From Parabacteroides distasonis (GTDB lineage Bacteria > Bacteroidota > Bacteroidia > Bacteroidales > Tannerellaceae): DNA of 64,000 nucleotides. Location: the NCBI RefSeq assembly GCF_004793765.1, contig NZ_SRYM01000002.1, forward strand, positions 1 to 64,000. The letters run 5' to 3'. The notes below the pieces were generated by a model. It ran no database searches, was not told the origin of the DNA, and saw nothing but the letters and a program-made list of their open reading frames with translations. The translations under genes and the position numbers were made by a program. Shown one piece after another: positions 13,586 to 55,145 of this stretch (its first letter is position 1; each line of letters begins with the position of its first letter).

Positions 13586-15145
13586 ATGAAACATCGATTA
13601 TCCATTATTATTATTCTAGCATCCTACGCAACCATCGTTTGCGGTCAGATTGTACTTCCCTCCCCCAATCAAGTGGAAATAAAAAAAGGTAAACTGACTT
13701 TACAGAAAGACATTTCCATATGCACTACGGATACCGCCGCTTTTTATGTAAGCCTTTTCCGTAGCGAAGTACTCCACAATGCTCCCATCAGATGGCAACC
13801 CAAAGCATCCGACGCCCATATCTGCTGGATGAACGATCCGTCACTCCCACCCGAAGGATATAAAATAACTATCAATCCGAGACAGATGACAGTTAGTGCC
13901 TCAAATGAAAGAGGATTTATCTATGCTATACAGACCTTGCGGCAATGGGTTACCGGTTCGACAGGGAAATTGACATTTATCTGTGCTGACATCACCGATA
14001 GTCCTCGCATGCAATGGCGTTGCTTCCTACTGGATTCCGGACGCCAATACCAAAAAATATCTACCATCAAAAAGTATATAGACATGGCTTCTCTACTTAA
14101 AATGAATTATTTCCATTGGCACCTGACAGAAGGATTGGGATGGCGGATAGAAATCAAGAAATATCCGTACCTTGCACAAGTAGGAGGTTCGGTAGGAAAG
14201 GGAGAAGAACAATGCGGATTCTATACACAGGAAGAAATACGGGAAATCGTTCAATATGCCAGCCAACGCAACATCACCATTGTTCCGGAAATAGATATGC
14301 CAGGACATGCAGAAGCCGCTCTTTCCGCTCATCCAGAACTGGGATGTTTCGGTCAGCCCGTCAAAGTGCCACAACAGGGATTCACCCAAAACATATTCTG
14401 TGCCGGAAAAGAAGAAGTACTAACTTTCTTGAAAAACGTATTGGACGAAGTATGCTCGCTTTTCCCCTCCCCCTATATCCATTTGGGGGGAGACGAAGCA
14501 CCGAAAGGTAATTGGAATAAATGTGAAGATTGCCAAAAGAAAATCGCTACGTTGAACTTGAAAGACAGTAACGACCTTCAGCTTTGGTTCTCTGCTCAAA
14601 TGGCAAAACACTTGAAGCAGAAAGGACGCAAAGCCATATTTTGGGGCGATGTGATTTATCAAGACGGCTATCCACTACCCGACAACACTGTAATTCAATG
14701 GTGGAACTATCGCGGCCACAAGGACCTAGCACTTCGCAATGCGCTCAAACACCACTATCCAGTCATTTGTAGTTCCAACTACTATACATACTTGAATTTT
14801 CCGCTCACTCCTTGGCGGGGATACACAAAAGAACGCACGTTCGACTTAAAAGATCTGTATTTGGACAACCCTTCCAATCAAGCATACAATGAAAAGAATC
14901 CTTTGATTCTCGGTATGAGTTGCGCATTGTGGACTGACGAAGGAGTGACAGAAGGCATGATAGACCAACGTCTGTTTCCCCGTATCCTCGGATTGGCAGA
15001 ACAGATGTGGCATCAAGGAAATCCATTGGATTTTACCCATTTTTATCAACACGTACTTCAAAAGAAAGGATGGTTCGAGCAACAGGGATTCGGATTCGGT
15101 CCTGCTTTAAAAAGCGAAGTCGAAAAAGATTATAAATGGGACTAA
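13586..15145 (+). CDS. Beta-N-acetylhexosaminidase (GH20)
   Basis: A 519-aa secreted glycoside hydrolase removing terminal GlcNAc or GalNAc from glycans. It has a signal peptide ending near residue 20 (ASYATIVCGQ), a GH20b-like N-terminal domain (about 25-140) and the (beta/alpha)8 catalytic domain from about 147. The catalytic pair D303-E304 lies in HLGGDEAP, and the substrate aromatic motif WGDVIYQDGYPL is present. C-terminal tail ends KDYKWD. It follows coaE by 17 nt with no visible promoter. It interrupts what I believe is a usual Bacteroidetes neighbourhood (coaE next to DUF5606). Confidence 0.93.
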   Translation: MKHRLSIIIILASYATIVCGQIVLPSPNQVEIKKGKLTLQKDISICTTDTAAFYVSLFRSEVLHNAPIRWQPKASDAHICWMNDPSLPPEGYKITINPRQMTVSASNERGFIYAIQTLRQWVTGSTGKLTFICADITDSPRMQWRCFLLDSGRQYQKISTIKKYIDMASLLKMNYFHWHLTEGLGWRIEIKKYPYLAQVGGSVGKGEEQCGFYTQEEIREIVQYASQRNITIVPEIDMPGHAEAALSAHPELGCFGQPVKVPQQGFTQNIFCAGKEEVLTFLKNVLDEVCSLFPSPYIHLGGDEAPKGNWNKCEDCQKKIATLNLKDSNDLQLWFSAQMAKHLKQKGRKAIFWGDVIYQDGYPLPDNTVIQWWNYRGHKDLALRNALKHHYPVICSSNYYTYLNFPLTPWRGYTKERTFDLKDLYLDNPSNQAYNEKNPLILGMSCALWTDEGVTEGMIDQRLFPRILGLAEQMWHQGNPLDFTHFYQHVLQKKGWFEQQGFGFGPALKSEVEKDYKWD

Positions 15146-48353: not shown

Positions 48354-48635
48354 CCACCTTTCTAATAATACACGGGAATAAAATGGCATCAGACAACAAA
48401 ATAATCGAATTGATCAAACAAGGAGATATAGCCGCCTTTAATACCCTGTTCAAGTCTGTTTATCTCCAACTTTATATACATTGCCGGAAATTTATCCCCG
48501 ACCCGGAAGATGCAAAAGACATCTTACAAAACGTCTTCCTCCGCTTCTGGGAAAAGCGTGAGAACATTGATATTCACACGTCTTTAAACGCTTATTTATA
48601 CAGGGCTATACAGAACGAATGCCTCAATTACCTTC

Positions 48636-48649
48636 GTTCTACCGGAACT
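48636..48649 (+). repeat. Left inversion site
   Basis: GTTCTACCGGAACT, the left copy of the 14-bp inverted repeat, inside the sigma gene. It is itself a dyad, GTTC-TACCG-GAAC, as expected for a recombinase binding site with a 5-bp centre. Confidence 0.85.
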
Positions 48650-48667
48650 CCCTACTTGATTAGCCAT
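48650..48667 (-). other. Stranded start codon and first six codons of susC
   Basis: On minus, 48667-48650 reads ATG GCT AAT CAA GTA GGG and runs straight into the site. After inversion it continues in frame into the susC frame at 50028. An A/T-rich leader lies upstream. Confidence 0.82.
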
Positions 48668-48789
48668 AATTAATAAATTTAAGATTAATAATAAGATCTA
48701 ACAATGTTACGTTTTTATCCGTATTACACTAAAAATCATCCATTTCTCATAAGCAAGACTGTTTTTAAGATTAATAATTCAATGATTTA

Positions 48790-49659
48790 TTATTTGATTA
48801 CTATAGTATCTTTCAGTATTTGATAGCGAATGCCCGTATTCGTCTTTATCACATTGAGAATCTCCGATAAATCTTCGTTGTTACGGAAACTACCGCTAAA
48901 CCTTAATTTTTTTATTCCTTGATTTTCATAATGAAATACAACGTTATAGTTCCTTTCCAACAACTTTGTTATATCTTGCAGATACATCATTTCGAAAGAC
49001 AAGAAACCTCCTCTCCATTGAGCAAATAGTTTCTGATCGTAAGGCACTACTTCTATCTTATTTCTACTTTTATCATAAACCGCCACTTGGTTTGGCTCAA
49101 GTAAGACCTCTTGTTTAGTCAACGTAGGTTGTACGGCAACCTTGCCATTGAACAAGGTTGTGGTTAGTCGCGAGTCTTCCATATAAGCGGAAATATTGAA
49201 GGCCGTACCGAGAGCCTTCACATCGATACCACTTGCTTTTACAACAAACGGTAAATCCTTGTTCTTCGCAACTTCAAAATAAGCTTCTCCATCTAAGCAA
49301 ATGTCACGATTGGAATGACCATAATTCTCCGCATATTCTATAGTTGTACAAGAATTGAGCCACACCTTCGTTCCATCCGGTAATTGCAAATAACTTTTCT
49401 CTCCTTTGCTCGTTACTAATTTATAACTGCCGACAGTCGAAGAGTCCTCTTGTCTAGCCAGGTATAACATTGATAATGAAATACCTATACCAAAAATAAC
49501 AGCTGCGGCATACTTCATGTATTGAATGAATTGCCTTCTTGTTTTCATTTTGGGAATAGCTTTTACCTCTATGGATGAAAACAAACGCTCCCATTCCTTA
49601 TTAACCTCTACCTCATCTTTAAGGCATTCCTCGATTATATCTTTTATATATTTCTTCAT
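48790..49659 (-). CDS. FecR-family anti-sigma factor
   Basis: A 289-aa inner-membrane anti-sigma protein: cytoplasmic N-terminus (about 45 residues), one helix (YMKYAAAVIFGIGISLSMLYL), and the periplasmic FecR domain (LVTSKGEKSYLQLPDGTKVW, LDGEAYFEVAKNKDLPFVVK). The C-terminal DUF4974 region (YDQKLFAQWRGGFLSFEMM, ITKLLERNYNVVFHYEN) contacts the receptor's STN domain. It lies within the invertible segment, on the opposite strand from susC/susD, behind the 3' half of the sigma gene. Confidence 0.93.
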   Translation of the reverse strand: MKKYIKDIIEECLKDEVEVNKEWERLFSSIEVKAIPKMKTRRQFIQYMKYAAAVIFGIGISLSMLYLARQEDSSTVGSYKLVTSKGEKSYLQLPDGTKVWLNSCTTIEYAENYGHSNRDICLDGEAYFEVAKNKDLPFVVKASGIDVKALGTAFNISAYMEDSRLTTTLFNGKVAVQPTLTKQEVLLEPNQVAVYDKSRNKIEVVPYDQKLFAQWRGGFLSFEMMYLQDITKLLERNYNVVFHYENQGIKKLRFSGSFRNNEDLSEILNVIKTNTGIRYQILKDTIVIK

Positions 49660-49739
49660 TGTTTTTTCTCGACTCTATATGTATGACACACTAAAGGGAT
49701 GTGTTACTTACAAGATTGATAGTTTTTTGTATTATATTT

Positions 49740-50041
49740 TCAAGAAGCCAAATAATCTTTTAATCTACTTTTTAAAGTCTTAAGGGCTCTATATATCTGC
49801 GTTTCCACCGTACGGACGGAAATATCCAGTTTATCTGCGATCTCTTGGTTCTTGAGTCCATTTATACGACTCAATTTAAATATGGATTTACATTGATCGG
49901 GTAATTCCTCTATCGTATTTTCCGTGATTCGCTCTATCTCAAGGACACTAAGTGTAGAATGAGGATCATTATCCTCCACTTCCTCTCGAAATAACACACC
50001 AGCAGTCTCATATCGAGGGACTTCAATAGTTCCGGTAGAAC
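49740..50041 (-). pseudogene. ECF sigma factor, C-terminal half (inverted fragment)
   Basis: From the site (50041-50028) the minus frame reads IEVPRYETAGVLFREE and continues with ECF region 4: TIEELPDQCKSIFKLSRING, then KNQEIADKLDISVRTVETQI and YRALKTLKSRL, stop at 49740. It has no start codon of its own upstream of the site. It follows on exactly, in phase, from the N-terminal half at 48383-48649. The stop lies 80 nt before fecR, as in intact sigma-fecR operons. Confidence 0.93.
50028..50041 (-). repeat. Right inversion site
   Basis: Plus strand AGTTCCGGTAGAAC, the exact reverse complement of the left site. With one more base it is AGTTC-CGGTA-GAACT, a perfect 5-bp-arm dyad. Confidence 0.85.
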
Positions 50042-53000
50042 TAATTACAGTACCCTGAAAAAATCATTATTTTTAGGTTTGTGCTTAACCTTTTCCCAGC
50101 CGTACACAGCAGCGGCATCAGCACAAATTATATCCTTAAATATCACAAAAGGAACTATCACTGAAGTTTTTAAAGCGATTGAAGACCAAAGTGAATATAA
50201 ATTCTTTTATAATGACAATCAAATCAATCTGAATAAACGGGTTGATGTCAATATCCATGGAGAATCCATAGAACAAGTATTGAACAATGTCTTTAGAGGT
50301 ACGGATATTACGTATAAGATCGTCAAGAATCACGTAGTACTTACCAACAAAACCATGAAAGATACGGAGTTACCATCCATCAACCAAAATCGCAAACGGC
50401 TAACCGGACAAGTAGTAGGACAAGATGGGGAGCCTCTGATCGGAGTAAACGTCGTGGTGAAAGGTACAACGATCGGATCTATGACTGATATGGACGGAAA
50501 CTACATTCTAGAGAATGTTCCCTCCAACGCTACTGTTGAATTCTCGTACATCGGCTATCTCCAACAAAGTATCAACGTAGGCAATAAAAGTAACCTCAAC
50601 GTCACTTTAGCGGAAGACACTCAAAAGTTGGATGAGGTGGTAGTTGTCGGTTATGGTTCGTTCAAGAAAAGAGATTTGACAGGAGCCGTCACCCAAGTAA
50701 AAGGAGATGAAATCGCCAATCTTCCTCTTCGAAGTGCTGCGGATGCCTTACAAGGAAAAGCGGCCGGAGTTACCATTACCTCCAGCTCAGGAAGTCCGGG
50801 TTCCATCGGAAACGTACGTATTCGCGGTGTAGGTACTATCAACAATAATAACCCATTATATGTTGTGGATGGATTGCCTCAAGATGATATAGGCTGGCTA
50901 AACGCACGTGATATTGAAAGCCTAGAAGTACTAAAAGACGCATCCGCACAGGCCATTTATGGAGCTAGAGCGGCAAACGGCGTGATCCTTGTTTCCACCA
51001 AACGCGGGGCTTCAGGTGATAGTTATAGAAGCAACATCGAATTTGACATGAATGTAGGTTTCCAAAGTATCCCTAAACGATATGACGTACTGGATGCTGA
51101 AGGTTTCATGGAGTACAAAAACCGTGCCTATACAGCGGCAGGCAAGACTCTGATTGACGATTTCTCCACACCGGAAAAAAGAGAACAAATACTCTCCTTC
51201 CTTGATAAGAATGGTGGGCGTGAAGGTACAGATTGGTGGGAAGCGACAACCCGCAAACCATCCGAGGCTATCAACCAGAATTACAACCTTGCGTTTTCAG
51301 GTGGTATGAATAAGTTGAGATATCGTACCAGCTTCGGCTATATGAACCAAAAAGGTATTCTGAAAGGTTCTGACTATGAACGCTTATCCGGACGATTAAA
51401 TCTTGATTCGGAGGTCACGAAATGGCTCAATCTGTCAGCAAACATAAATGTAGTTTATGAATCTAGGAGAAACTTAGACGAAAACAACTCCTATTCCGCT
51501 ACTGTATTTAGTACAATCAGTGCCGATCCGATCACACCGATTTATCGTGATAACCTCGTGGATATCCCCGACTTTCTGCAAAATCGTATCATGAGTGGTT
51601 ATGAACCGACTAATCCTTGGTCTCGTTATACCGGGGTTATCTACTCCAATAAGCCGAATACGGTAGCCCAAGTAGATCGGCAAGCTCTCAGCCAATGGCA
51701 CGGGATCGCAACAAAGAGTAATATTTCCGGTGAATTCAAATTATTCCCATTCTTGACCTTCAAGTCTAGTATTGCTCTTGATTTGATCCGGAACCAAAGT
51801 GATTCTTTCAGGCCTAAATACTATTTGGATGGAGATGAGTACTCGACCTATGCAGGAGTAGGACGTTCTGTTGGAAATACGGATTATTGGGTATTTGACA
51901 ATTACCTCACATACAACCAAAAATTCAATAAACATGCCATCACTGCCATGGCCGGAACCTCGGCTGAAAAGAGACGCTACGAAGATATCTATGCCTACAA
52001 GGAGGGTATGGTTAATAATAATCCAAGCCAGCAAATCATCAATGCGGGAACTTTAAACCCGGGAGCGGCCGGATACATCTCAACGACTTCGTTGAATTCC
52101 TACTTCGGTCGTATTTTCTATTCGTTTGACAATCGCTACATGATCACGGCCAATATCCGTTGGGATGGATCGTCTATGTTTGCTACAGGCCATAAATGGG
52201 GTTGCTTCCCATCTGTTTCCGCAGGATGGAACTTCTCGGAAGAAAATTTCCTTAAGGATGTTGATTGGTTATCACAAGGTAAATTGCGTGCCGCATGGGG
52301 TGAGATTGGAAACCAAACAATCTCGGCCGGCGCTTACATGAACACATTTGGCAACGGCAGTTATTACATCTTCGGTAATCCTAACGCTGCCACTTTATAC
52401 GGAGGACGTAACCAAGTAGGTAATCCTGACTTAAAATGGGAAACTACCCGCCAACTAGATTTTGGTTTGGATTTAGCGTTCTTTGATGGATCGTTAAGAG
52501 CCACATTCGATTACTTCGATCGTGAAACAAAAGATATGTTGGTGCAAGTTCCCATCCCAAGCTCATTAGGTTTTCCGAATACACCTTGGATGAACGCAGG
52601 TAGTGTAAGCAATAAAGGTTTTGAAATTTCATTAGGATACGATGGTAAAGCCGGCAAAGACTTCAAATATCACATCAACGGTAATATATCGACCTATCGC
52701 AACAAGGTGAAGAGCCTAGGTAGCGGAGCTAATATACCGGGTAAGGGCGTTCACCTCGGTTATTTCTCTTACACAATGACCGAACCAGATAAACCTATCG
52801 GTTACTTCTATGGATTCAAGACAGATGGAGTATTCCAGACTCAAGATGAGATTGATAATTACAAGAACAATGGGCAGGTTGTCATGCCAGGCGCAAAACC
52901 GGGCGATTTGAAGTTCCAAGACCTAAACAAAGATGGTAAATTGGATGACGAGGATCGTACGATGACAGGAAATCCGCATCCGGACTTCACTTTTGGCCTT

Positions 53001-53480
53001 ACCTTAGGGGCAGAATGGAAGGGATTTGATTTCACAGCCTTCTTCCAAGGTTCCGTAGGCAACGACCTCCTGAACATCTTGAAATATGACATCTATTCAG
53101 GAACCGGTTGGTACAACGCTCCTAAAGACATCTTAACTACTTTCTGGAATGGGCCAGGTAGTACAAACAAGAATTTCGCCATCGACGCAGATAGCCGTAT
53201 GAATCTTGAAATGTCTGATTGGTATGTCGAAAACGGTTCTTATGTACGTTTGAAGAACTTACAGATTGGTTATACCCTCCCGTCTTCGCTAACAAAAAAG
53301 ATCACGCTCAACAATCTTCGCGTTTTTGTAGCGGCACAGAACTTATTTACGATCACCGGTTATTCCGGACTTGATCCCGAAATCGGAGAGATCAACAACA
53401 ATCCGCAATATAAAGGTTGCGACATGGGATTCTATCCACAAGCAAGGACATTTATGTTCGGTATTAGTATGAAACTATAA
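50028..53480 (+). CDS. SusC-like TonB-dependent transducer, start codon displaced by inversion
   Basis: A SusC/RagA outer-membrane importer. It has a signal peptide (KKSLFLGLCLTFSQPYTAAA), STN domain (ISLNITKGTITEVFKAIEDQ), CarboxypepD-reg domain (LTGQVVGQDGEPLIGVNVVV), TonB box region (LDEVVVVGYG), plug and a barrel ending MFGISMKL. The STN domain marks receptors that signal to FecR/ECF pairs. In this orientation the frame upstream of the signal has no ATG; only CTG 50055 or TTG 50079 could start it. The inverted state supplies ATG and six codons, giving 1156 aa. Substrate is a glycan or glycopeptide, unknown. Confidence 0.92.
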   Translation, partial: SSGRTNYSTLKKSLFLGLCLTFSQPYTAAASAQIISLNITKGTITEVFKAIEDQSEYKFFYNDNQINLNKRVDVNIHGESIEQVLNNVFRGTDITYKIVKNHVVLTNKTMKDTELPSINQNRKRLTGQVVGQDGEPLIGVNVVVKGTTIGSMTDMDGNYILENVPSNATVEFSYIGYLQQSINVGNKSNLNVTLAEDTQKLDEVVVVGYGSFKKRDLTGAVTQVKGDEIANLPLRSAADALQGKAAGVTITSSSGSPGSIGNVRIRGVGTINNNNPLYVVDGLPQDDIGWLNARDIESLEVLKDASAQAIYGARAANGVILVSTKRGASGDSYRSNIEFDMNVGFQSIPKRYDVLDAEGFMEYKNRAYTAAGKTLIDDFSTPEKREQILSFLDKNGGREGTDWWEATTRKPSEAINQNYNLAFSGGMNKLRYRTSFGYMNQKGILKGSDYERLSGRLNLDSEVTKWLNLSANINVVYESRRNLDENNSYSATVFSTISADPITPIYRDNLVDIPDFLQNRIMSGYEPTNPWSRYTGVIYSNKPNTVAQVDRQALSQWHGIATKSNISGEFKLFPFLTFKSSIALDLIRNQSDSFRPKYYLDGDEYSTYAGVGRSVGNTDYWVFDNYLTYNQKFNKHAITAMAGTSAEKRRYEDIYAYKEGMVNNNPSQQIINAGTLNPGAAGYISTTSLNSYFGRIFYSFDNRYMITANIRWDGSSMFATGHKWGCFPSVSAGWNFSEENFLKDVDWLSQGKLRAAWGEIGNQTISAGAYMNTFGNGSYYIFGNPNAATLYGGRNQVGNPDLKWETTRQLDFGLDLAFFDGSLRATFDYFDRETKDMLVQVPIPSSLGFPNTPWMNAGSVSNKGFEISLGYDGKAGKDFKYHINGNISTYRNKVKSLGSGANIPGKGVHLGYFSYTMTEPDKPIGYFYGFKTDGVFQTQDEIDNYKNNGQVVMPGAKPGDLKFQDLNKDGKLDDEDRTMTGNPHPDFTFGLTLGAEWKGFDFTAFFQGSVGNDLLNILKYDIYSGTGWYNAPKDILTTFWNGPGSTNKNFAIDADSRMNLEMSDWYVENGSYVRLKNLQIGYTLPSSLTKKITLNNLRVFVAAQNLFTITGYSGLDPEIGEINNNPQYKGCDMGFYPQARTFMFGISMKL

Positions 53481-53498
53481 TTTAAATTCGGATACATT

Positions 53499-55145
53499 AT
53501 GAAATCAATAATAAAAACAGGAAAGATATTCGCTTTTGTTCTAAGCATCAATGCCCTCACAATTAGCTGTAATAGTGATTTCCTAGAAAGACCCACTTTG
53601 GGTAATTTGGATGAAGAGACCTATTTAAGTACCGAAGACGCAGGTTTCAAGTTATTGGTAAACTGTTACCAGCCAATATGGAACCAATGGGATTATCAAA
53701 CCATGAAATTCGATATTGGAGATCAATTGACAGACGATTGCGCCAAAGGAGGTTCCGATGCAGGTGACCGTTCCGCCATCACGGAGATCAGCCGAGGTAA
53801 TCCGATCGCTACCAGTAGCCTGCTTACGCAGCTTTGGGATCATCGTTATAAACAAGCGATCTCTCCTTGTAACGTATTTTTATCACTAATCACTCCAGAG
53901 ACACAATTGATTCAATCCGGAGGAGCTTTAGTAAGTACCGAGGTTAAACAAAGATGGATAGCGGAAGCCCATTTCATGCGTGCATTCTACTATTTCGATC
54001 TGGCTATGATATTCGAGAACATTCCAATCATAAATAAACCATTGAACGCAACCGAGAAAGAAAGCATCACGAAAGCGAACAAGGAAGAGGTCATGCAGTT
54101 TATCCTTTCAGATTTGGCGACAGCCATTGATGAACCAAATCTTCCTAGTGCGAAAAACTTACCTAGCTCGGAAATTGGACGTGTAACAAAGGAAGCCGCA
54201 ATGTCTTTCCGTGCTCGTGTAAACATGTTTTATGGTAATCTAGAAGCCGCAAAGTCTGACTTAAAGGCCGTTATAGAATCGGGATGCTATCAACTCATCG
54301 ACAATTACGAGACCTTATTCAATAGTGCCTCAGAAGGATATATATCCAAAGAATCTGTCTTTATTTCTTTACGTTCTTATATCCCGAACTATACAGGTGG
54401 AAGTGTATGCCCGCAGATGAATGTAGGTCGTGCCGGGACCGGCGGTTGGGGAGGCGAATGCCCAACCAACGATTTGGTAAATGAATATGAGGTAGGTGAT
54501 CCCCGTTTGGTACATACCGTATTATCCTCCGGAGACATATTCACCAAAACGGATGGAACCGAAGAGATCCACGATTATTCAGGATATGATAACTTTACGT
54601 TGCAACATAGCCGCAAGCAATATCCGGATTGGTCAAGACGGCCTATCGGCGATTTGATGAATACAGACTGGACATTCTATCATATCCGTTACGCCGACGT
54701 ATTATTAATGTACGCGGAATGTTTGATTGAGACAAACGACAATAAGCAAAAAGCGGTGGACTTGATCAATGAGGTGCGTCACCGTGCTTTTGTCACCACA
54801 TCCCCCACTGATAGTTATGCCAAATATCGTAAATTCAATGTTACCGAAGACAAAAAAGTGACAGAAGAAATATTTAATACGAAATACAAAGTAAAAGTAT
54901 CGGATGATTTACGAAAAGCCCTCCGCCACGAACGACGTGTCGAACTAGGAGGCGAAGGACTGCGTCTGTATGATTTACTTCGTTGGGGAACTTTTGTCTC
55001 CACGATGCAAGCTTTCGGAAAAACAGCCGAAGGAAAATATTCAAGTGCCGGGACACATGTCACGGACAAGACCTATCCTTACCCCATCCCCCAAAATGAG
55101 ATCGATTACGTAGGAGGAGCGTTAACTCAAAATGACAATTACTAA
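53499..55145 (+). CDS. SusD/RagB-family nutrient-binding lipoprotein
   Basis: A 548-aa surface lipoprotein (lipobox LTISC, Cys near residue 24) that caps the SusC barrel and binds the substrate. It has the N-terminal helical TPR part (LERPTLGNLDEETYLS; WIAEAHFMRAFYYFDLAMIF) and the C-terminal SusD signature (RYADVLLMYAECLIETND, DDLRKALRHERRVELGGEG, YPYPIPQNEID). It starts 18 nt after susC and ends at a terminator; no glycoside hydrolase follows. Confidence 0.94.
   Translation: MKSIIKTGKIFAFVLSINALTISCNSDFLERPTLGNLDEETYLSTEDAGFKLLVNCYQPIWNQWDYQTMKFDIGDQLTDDCAKGGSDAGDRSAITEISRGNPIATSSLLTQLWDHRYKQAISPCNVFLSLITPETQLIQSGGALVSTEVKQRWIAEAHFMRAFYYFDLAMIFENIPIINKPLNATEKESITKANKEEVMQFILSDLATAIDEPNLPSAKNLPSSEIGRVTKEAAMSFRARVNMFYGNLEAAKSDLKAVIESGCYQLIDNYETLFNSASEGYISKESVFISLRSYIPNYTGGSVCPQMNVGRAGTGGWGGECPTNDLVNEYEVGDPRLVHTVLSSGDIFTKTDGTEEIHDYSGYDNFTLQHSRKQYPDWSRRPIGDLMNTDWTFYHIRYADVLLMYAECLIETNDNKQKAVDLINEVRHRAFVTTSPTDSYAKYRKFNVTEDKKVTEEIFNTKYKVKVSDDLRKALRHERRVELGGEGLRLYDLLRWGTFVSTMQAFGKTAEGKYSSAGTHVTDKTYPYPIPQNEIDYVGGALTQNDNY

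Follow-up and report, generated by a model that had tools for sequence, protein, structure and literature searches.

We analysed a 64,000-nucleotide stretch of Parabacteroides distasonis DNA (positions 1 to 64,000 of contig NZ_SRYM01000002.1, assembly GCF_004793765.1, a draft of 177 contigs and 4,213,495 bases; hereafter the window, and its genome the window genome), in which a locus encoding an extracytoplasmic function (ECF) sigma factor, a FecR-type anti-sigma factor and a SusC/SusD importer is interrupted by an inverted segment with one end in the sigma gene and the other near the start of susC. A real inversion of this segment was confirmed. We consider it likely that the inversion is site-specific and reversible, of the type associated with the invertase Tsr0667 of Bacteroides fragilis, and that it would act as an ON/OFF switch of the whole sigma-FecR-SusC/SusD unit. 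The best reading of the breakpoints is that a Tsr0667-type site lies inside susC and has, in the P. distasonis clade, its partner in the sigma gene.

As it stands in the window, the sigma gene is in two pieces on opposite strands. Codons 1-89, with sigma region 2, lie on the plus strand at 48383..48649 (PF04542, E 9.5e-14 for the 96-aa frame, with the Sigma70_r2 match covering residues 22-87), and the remaining 95 codons (90-184), with region 4, lie on the minus strand at 49740..50027 (codons from 50027 to 49743, the stop extending to 49740; PF08281, E 1.7e-16). An intact fecR-type anti-sigma/transducer gene of 289 aa lies between them, also on the minus strand (48790..49659; PF04773, PF16344); the coordinates given for this split in a preliminary description of the stretch hold. 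The two halves meet, as that description had noticed, at two inverted copies of the 14-mer GTTCTACCGGAACT, found at 48636-48649 on the plus strand and at 50028-50041 on the minus strand. The sigma-side copy forms sigma codons 85-89, at the end of region 2 and ahead of the linker as judged from the Pfam domain limits, and the susC-side copy, read on the plus strand as AGTTCCGGTAGAACT (50028..50042), forms susC codons 7-11 (SSGRT). The interior of the inverted segment is 1378 bp long (48650..50027). Beyond it, susC continues on the plus strand from codon 12 and is open to the end (50043..53480), followed by susD (548 aa; 53499..55145, plus strand; PF07980, PF14322). Pfam domains at the locus thus comprise Sigma70_r2 and Sigma70_r4_2 on the separate sigma halves, FecR and FecR_C, STN, Plug and beta-barrel on SusC, and SusD.

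When the segment was turned by script, the two sigma pieces joined into a single 184-aa frame without frame change and the genes fell into the order sigma-fecR-susC-susD on one strand, both as the preliminary description had predicted. This virtual inversion also supplies the start of susC, which the description had missed: in the unflipped form the gene begins ATG GCT AAT CAA GTA GGG, continues through the site read as S-S-G-R-T and enters the body, giving a protein of 1156 aa (MANQVGSSGRT...). Both site copies are therefore coding in the unflipped form, and the earlier statement that coding frames are cut stands with the correction that two genes are cut, sigma and susC, rather than sigma alone. 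The detached susC start codon and codons 1-6 (MANQVG) now lie on the minus strand at 48650..48667, next to the susC leader (48668..48789, minus strand), which probably holds the susC promoter. All eight compared genomes that have susC begin it with MANxxG, and TAATCTTAA and AATTATG adjoining the start are kept in eight genomes.

In the present, flipped orientation, the truncated sigma stops seven codons past the site, with a tail PYLISHN (48650..48673 including the stop, plus strand) that is the antisense of the susC start, and region 4 and fecR run in the opposite direction. After the last in-frame stop, the first ATG, GTG or TTG available to the susC body is an internal TTG at 50079, and the leftward-facing susC ATG opens only 23 codons. 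Because the frames are cut and the susC start is missing, we infer that the unit is silent in this orientation.

The paired sites are unlikely to be a chance resemblance. GTTCTACCGGAACT occurs only twice in the whole window genome, and no inverted match that the sigma gene makes with the opening 66 bases of susC is longer. Among 2000 codon-shuffled versions of the sigma gene none gave a 14-base match (maximum 13). Equivalent matches of 13 bases in the relative G016 and of 14 bases in G025 were reached by 1/2000 and 0/2000 shuffled genes, respectively, and the longest match was only 6-7 bases in G018, G023, G021, G012 and G032. Four genomes (the window genome, G016, G025 and G028) have the sigma-side site, with small differences; in the remaining five genomes with the locus the sigma gene lacks it. 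In G025 both copies differ from those of the window genome by one identical base, a single change but one that would be expected if the copies exchange strands. Furthermore, the split is unique within the window genome: of its 29 Sigma70_r2 matches, 24 have a Sigma70_r4_2 match nearby on the same strand, four lack one within reach, and at this locus alone it lies on the opposite strand. An identical split between regions 2 and 4 occurs in G016, at 2261502/2262835.

To place the two orientations, 38 genomes of the genus were searched, one per species in the comparison, and at E <= 1e-20 nine Parabacteroides genomes had the locus: the window genome, G016, G021, an uncultured Parabacteroides (G028), a Parabacteroides metagenome-assembled genome (G025), P. 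gordonii (G018), P. goldsteinii (G023), P. bouchesdurhonensis (G012) and P. chinchillae (G032). A weak match in G006, whose sigma is uncut (182 residues matched), falls outside this count. Among viral contigs, five stretches fitted a pattern and none was confirmed as a relative of fecR. The segment is flipped in two of the nine genomes (the window genome and G016) and unflipped in the other seven. Sigma is followed by fecR in all seven unflipped genomes and fecR by susC in six, the exception being G028, so that the order which the preliminary description called usual is indeed the usual one; susD stands behind susC in five of the seven, the stretch from G021 ending within susC. In G028, susC is gone and susD is reduced to about 87 codons (locus L003, 6043-6405), with sigma and fecR intact. 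An assembly error or a chimeric contig might be suspected from the draft state of the window genome, but G016 is a single contig of 4,811,379 bases that matches a 2018-base query with 92% identity in the same orientation, and its truncated sigma (98.9% amino acid identity over codons 1-89) ends in the same PYLISHN. Moreover, repeats of 14 bases are far shorter than sequencing reads. The same flip in a one-contig genome makes such an error very unlikely, to the point that we give it almost no weight.

The flipped genomes do not group together. Trees of the segment and its left flank were built from eight of the nine genomes (all except G023), and the gene trees had already been seen before the topology test. 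The segment tree pairs the flipped G016 with the unflipped G028 (support 100/99), and for the inverted segment a topology with both flipped genomes in one clade is rejected (approximately unbiased (AU) test, p 0.0016). Where the segment divides the four close genomes into two pairs, 43 sites unite G016 with G028, 9 the window genome with G016 and 4 the window genome with G028. The left flank likewise disfavours the flipped pair (p 0.036), with 21 of 31 sites joining the window genome and G028. Since the flipped genomes are not one clade, the orientation has probably changed more than once; at least two changes among the four close species is the likely and simplest reading, although it is not proved. 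In the two flipped genomes no stop interrupts either sigma half, fecR, susC or susD, and the ratio of nonsynonymous to synonymous substitution rates (dN/dS) between the window genome and G016, estimated with NG86, is 0.05 for the sigma N-terminal half, 0.22 for the C-terminal half, 0.15 for fecR and 0.035 for the susC body, the last with a dS of 1.9 that is near saturation; several genome pairs gave no value, and susD was not computable.

The susC-side copy, AGTTCCGGTAGAACT, fits in full the motif AGTYYYN4GDACT, reportedly the consensus for Tsr0667 (Nakayama-Imaohji, 2009). The window genome has 44 matches to this motif, among them seven identical inverted pairs within 2 kb (on contigs C33, C85 (twice), C91, C101, C113 and C155), while a reversed-motif control gave 97 matches and no identical inverted pair within 2 kb; for the control pairs, 59 rows were re-checked by script, excluding contigs with a single place and second readings of palindromic places. 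Six of the seven pairs are next to susC-like genes or inside their starts, and the C155 pair lies beside a glycosyltransferase-like gene (genes beside the pairs were named by eye from translations, except the susC on C113, which was named by Pfam). At C101 24253/24804 and C33 72124/72397, a segment of 0.3-0.6 kb between identical inverted motifs has a susC-like gene on either side, the two genes being divergent and alike at their beginnings; these segments are perhaps invertible promoters that choose between two importers. One of the susC-like genes on C101 is in two frames in the window genome (494 and 620 aa) and in one in G016 (1067 aa). On C113, identical inverted motifs stand 1.9 kb apart at 14680 and 16621, one of them inside susC near codon 40, and an inversion there would swap out the beginning of that gene.

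The window genome has 49 tyrosine recombinase matches. One of them is on C101 (29698-30942 as first called; 392 aa from a conserved MEKVIYN start), where a susC/susD pair stands between it and the C101 motif pair some 5 kb away; it is a candidate for the invertase by association only. Relatives of it at E <= 1e-80 are found in 24 of the 38 genus genomes, the window genome included; in G016, G012 and G032 they also lie about 5 kb from motif copies, and the frame is whole in all six copies checked, that of the window genome among them. An NCBIfam scan of 10 of the 49 matches singled out no SusC invertase. Two further tyrosine recombinase genes of 368 aa each, with near-identical beginnings and near contig ends (C100:137648-138106 and C108:284-742), are perhaps a repeated mobile element.

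Several observations weigh against a reversible switch and must be set beside this evidence. With its flanking C, the sigma-side copy misses the motif at one terminal base in the window genome, and likewise at one position in G025, whereas in G028 both of its ends deviate. Neither of the copies in G016, in its present state, fits fully, and the two agree over 13 bases. The motif is rarer overall in the window genome than its reversed control (44 vs 97), and no match to the candidate recombinase was found at E 1e-80 in G028, a genome that is 83% complete. The left flank disfavours the pairing of G016 with G028 as well (p 0.033), and near the left junction the window genome and G016 are the most alike (97.8% in the sigma N-terminal half, vs 95.5% between the window genome and G028). 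Because the left flank and the left-junction region disagree with the segment tree, the locus is a mosaic, and the number of flips could be obscured by interspecies exchange. Estimates of dN/dS by YN00 are higher (0.07 and 0.42 for the sigma N- and C-terminal halves, 0.26 for fecR), and low values could reflect selection before recent flips. A different account is that recombination between the short inverted repeats, whether illegitimate or driven by an invertase, was a rare event, and that two lineages lost the function when the flipped form became fixed in them. The tree would look the same after two separate one-way inversions, each genome is known in one orientation only, the site in sigma is imperfect, and the loss of susC and most of susD from G028 means that the unit can be dispensed with. 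Nevertheless, neither flipped genome has acquired a stop, dN/dS is below 1 wherever it could be computed, the flipped genomes are not a single clade, and the window genome holds a series of identical inverted copies of the motif, paired next to susC-like genes, which together leave one-way inversion an unlikely, though by no means trivial, explanation. The preliminary description had proposed a reversible switch, and this proposal gains from the inverted segment bounded by the 14-mer, the order restored on turning and the trees that favour more than one change; the mechanism, however, is of a known kind, given that the susC copy fits the SusC-linked site type of Tsr0667.

The genomes of two sister species, G012 and G032, suggest where such a switch may have come from. 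In G012 the sigma-fecR-susC-susD unit faces a second susC-susD pair 14.5 kb off. The susC of this pair is without the MANHTG start and leader, and a strong hairpin and a T run come before it. The two site copies of G032 enclose the equivalent piece, 9.9 kb long, in the opposite orientation to that of G012, and the remote susC of G032 is a remnant. The cassette behind the G032 sigma resembles the remote cassette of G012 (SusC 90.3%, SusD 89.3%) more than the one behind the G012 sigma (SusC 78.6%, SusD 71.4%). The two genomes differ by an inversion of 10-14.5 kb that changes which SusC/SusD cassette follows one sigma-fecR unit. All four site copies are AGTTCTGGAAGAACT, and the shared sequence starts at the site, which indicates that the susC site or its immediate surroundings served as the breakpoint. 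In these genomes the partner is probably the second susC, which carries this site too. Less favourably, on its other side the shared sequence extends into susC, for about 190 bases in one alignment, and the breakpoint is resolved on one side only, so the crossover may fall either on the site or within this common susC start and could be the work of ordinary homologous recombination.

It could be argued from this second copy, 14.5 or 9.9 kb away at another susC or its remnant, that the flip in the window is a by-product of a SusC/SusD cassette-exchange shufflon, with a silent second susC as the true partner and the sigma copy incidental. The importer genes of the window genome and G016 are in keeping with such exchange: divergence is much greater in susC (dS 1.9) and susD (69% nucleotide identity) than in two genes of the flanks (dS 0.09 and 0.37), much as though the cassette (window 50043-55145) had been swapped. 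However, no second copy of this susC was found in the window genome or G016 at E 1e-280, the window genome holds no third 14-mer, and the observed flip uses the sigma copy, so that we regard this account as improbable. We somewhat favour, instead, a history in which the susC inversion site switched partner during evolution, from a silent second susC (importer choice) to the ECF sigma gene (ON/OFF); programmed inversion would then split sigma between its two DNA-binding domains and remove the start of the receptor, breaking the signalling loop at both ends.

In the switch as we propose it, a tyrosine recombinase would exchange strands between the site in susC codons 7-11 and its inverted copy in sigma codons 85-89. 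In the ON state sigma, fecR, susC and susD would be co-directional, and SusC (through its STN signalling domain), FecR and sigma would form the usual signalling loop. In the OFF state, that of the window, sigma would end after region 2, region 4 and fecR would be directed away from the sigma promoter, and susC would be cut off from its leader, its start codon and the first part of its signal sequence; sigma, anti-sigma and importer would then presumably all be silent. The flip would still be reversible today. For annotation, this carries a warning, as a truncated sigma and a startless susC could pass as pseudogenes and yet are whole in the other orientation. The genomes also show different stages, namely no sigma-side site, a sigma-side site unflipped, a flipped segment, and cassette exchange, and the evolution of a programmed inversion therefore becomes traceable.

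No description of this arrangement was found in the literature searched, which covered listings and text passages of papers. Numerous inversion sites are reported for P. distasonis in a passage of PMC5903667, and the present locus may be among them, since that passage does not name the sites. In B. fragilis, Tsr0667 acts on SusC/SusD clusters (PMC4747536, PMC11852207) and on nine further regions (PMC4747536). The present locus resembles those inversions in the motif of its susC copy, in sites at the starts of susC-like genes, in the cassette exchange of G012 and G032 and in the presence of tyrosine recombinases. It differs in that the partner copy lies in an ECF sigma gene, so that regulator and importer are cut together, and in that the outcome would be ON/OFF rather than a choice of importer. 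Like the invertible promoters of Bacteroidales (capsule loci, Mpi and others), the segment carries a leader that probably includes a promoter; unlike them, its inversion also cuts a start codon, reading frames and the unit's own sigma gene. A further parallel is offered by intragenic invertons, reportedly described by Chanin in 2024. As in these, both sites are in coding sequence and inversion alters the possible proteins, but here the sites lie in two different genes with a third between them, and the flipped form truncates. While SusC/SusD variation driven by inversion is already known, at this locus the regulator itself is cut, and codons of two genes make up the recombination sites.

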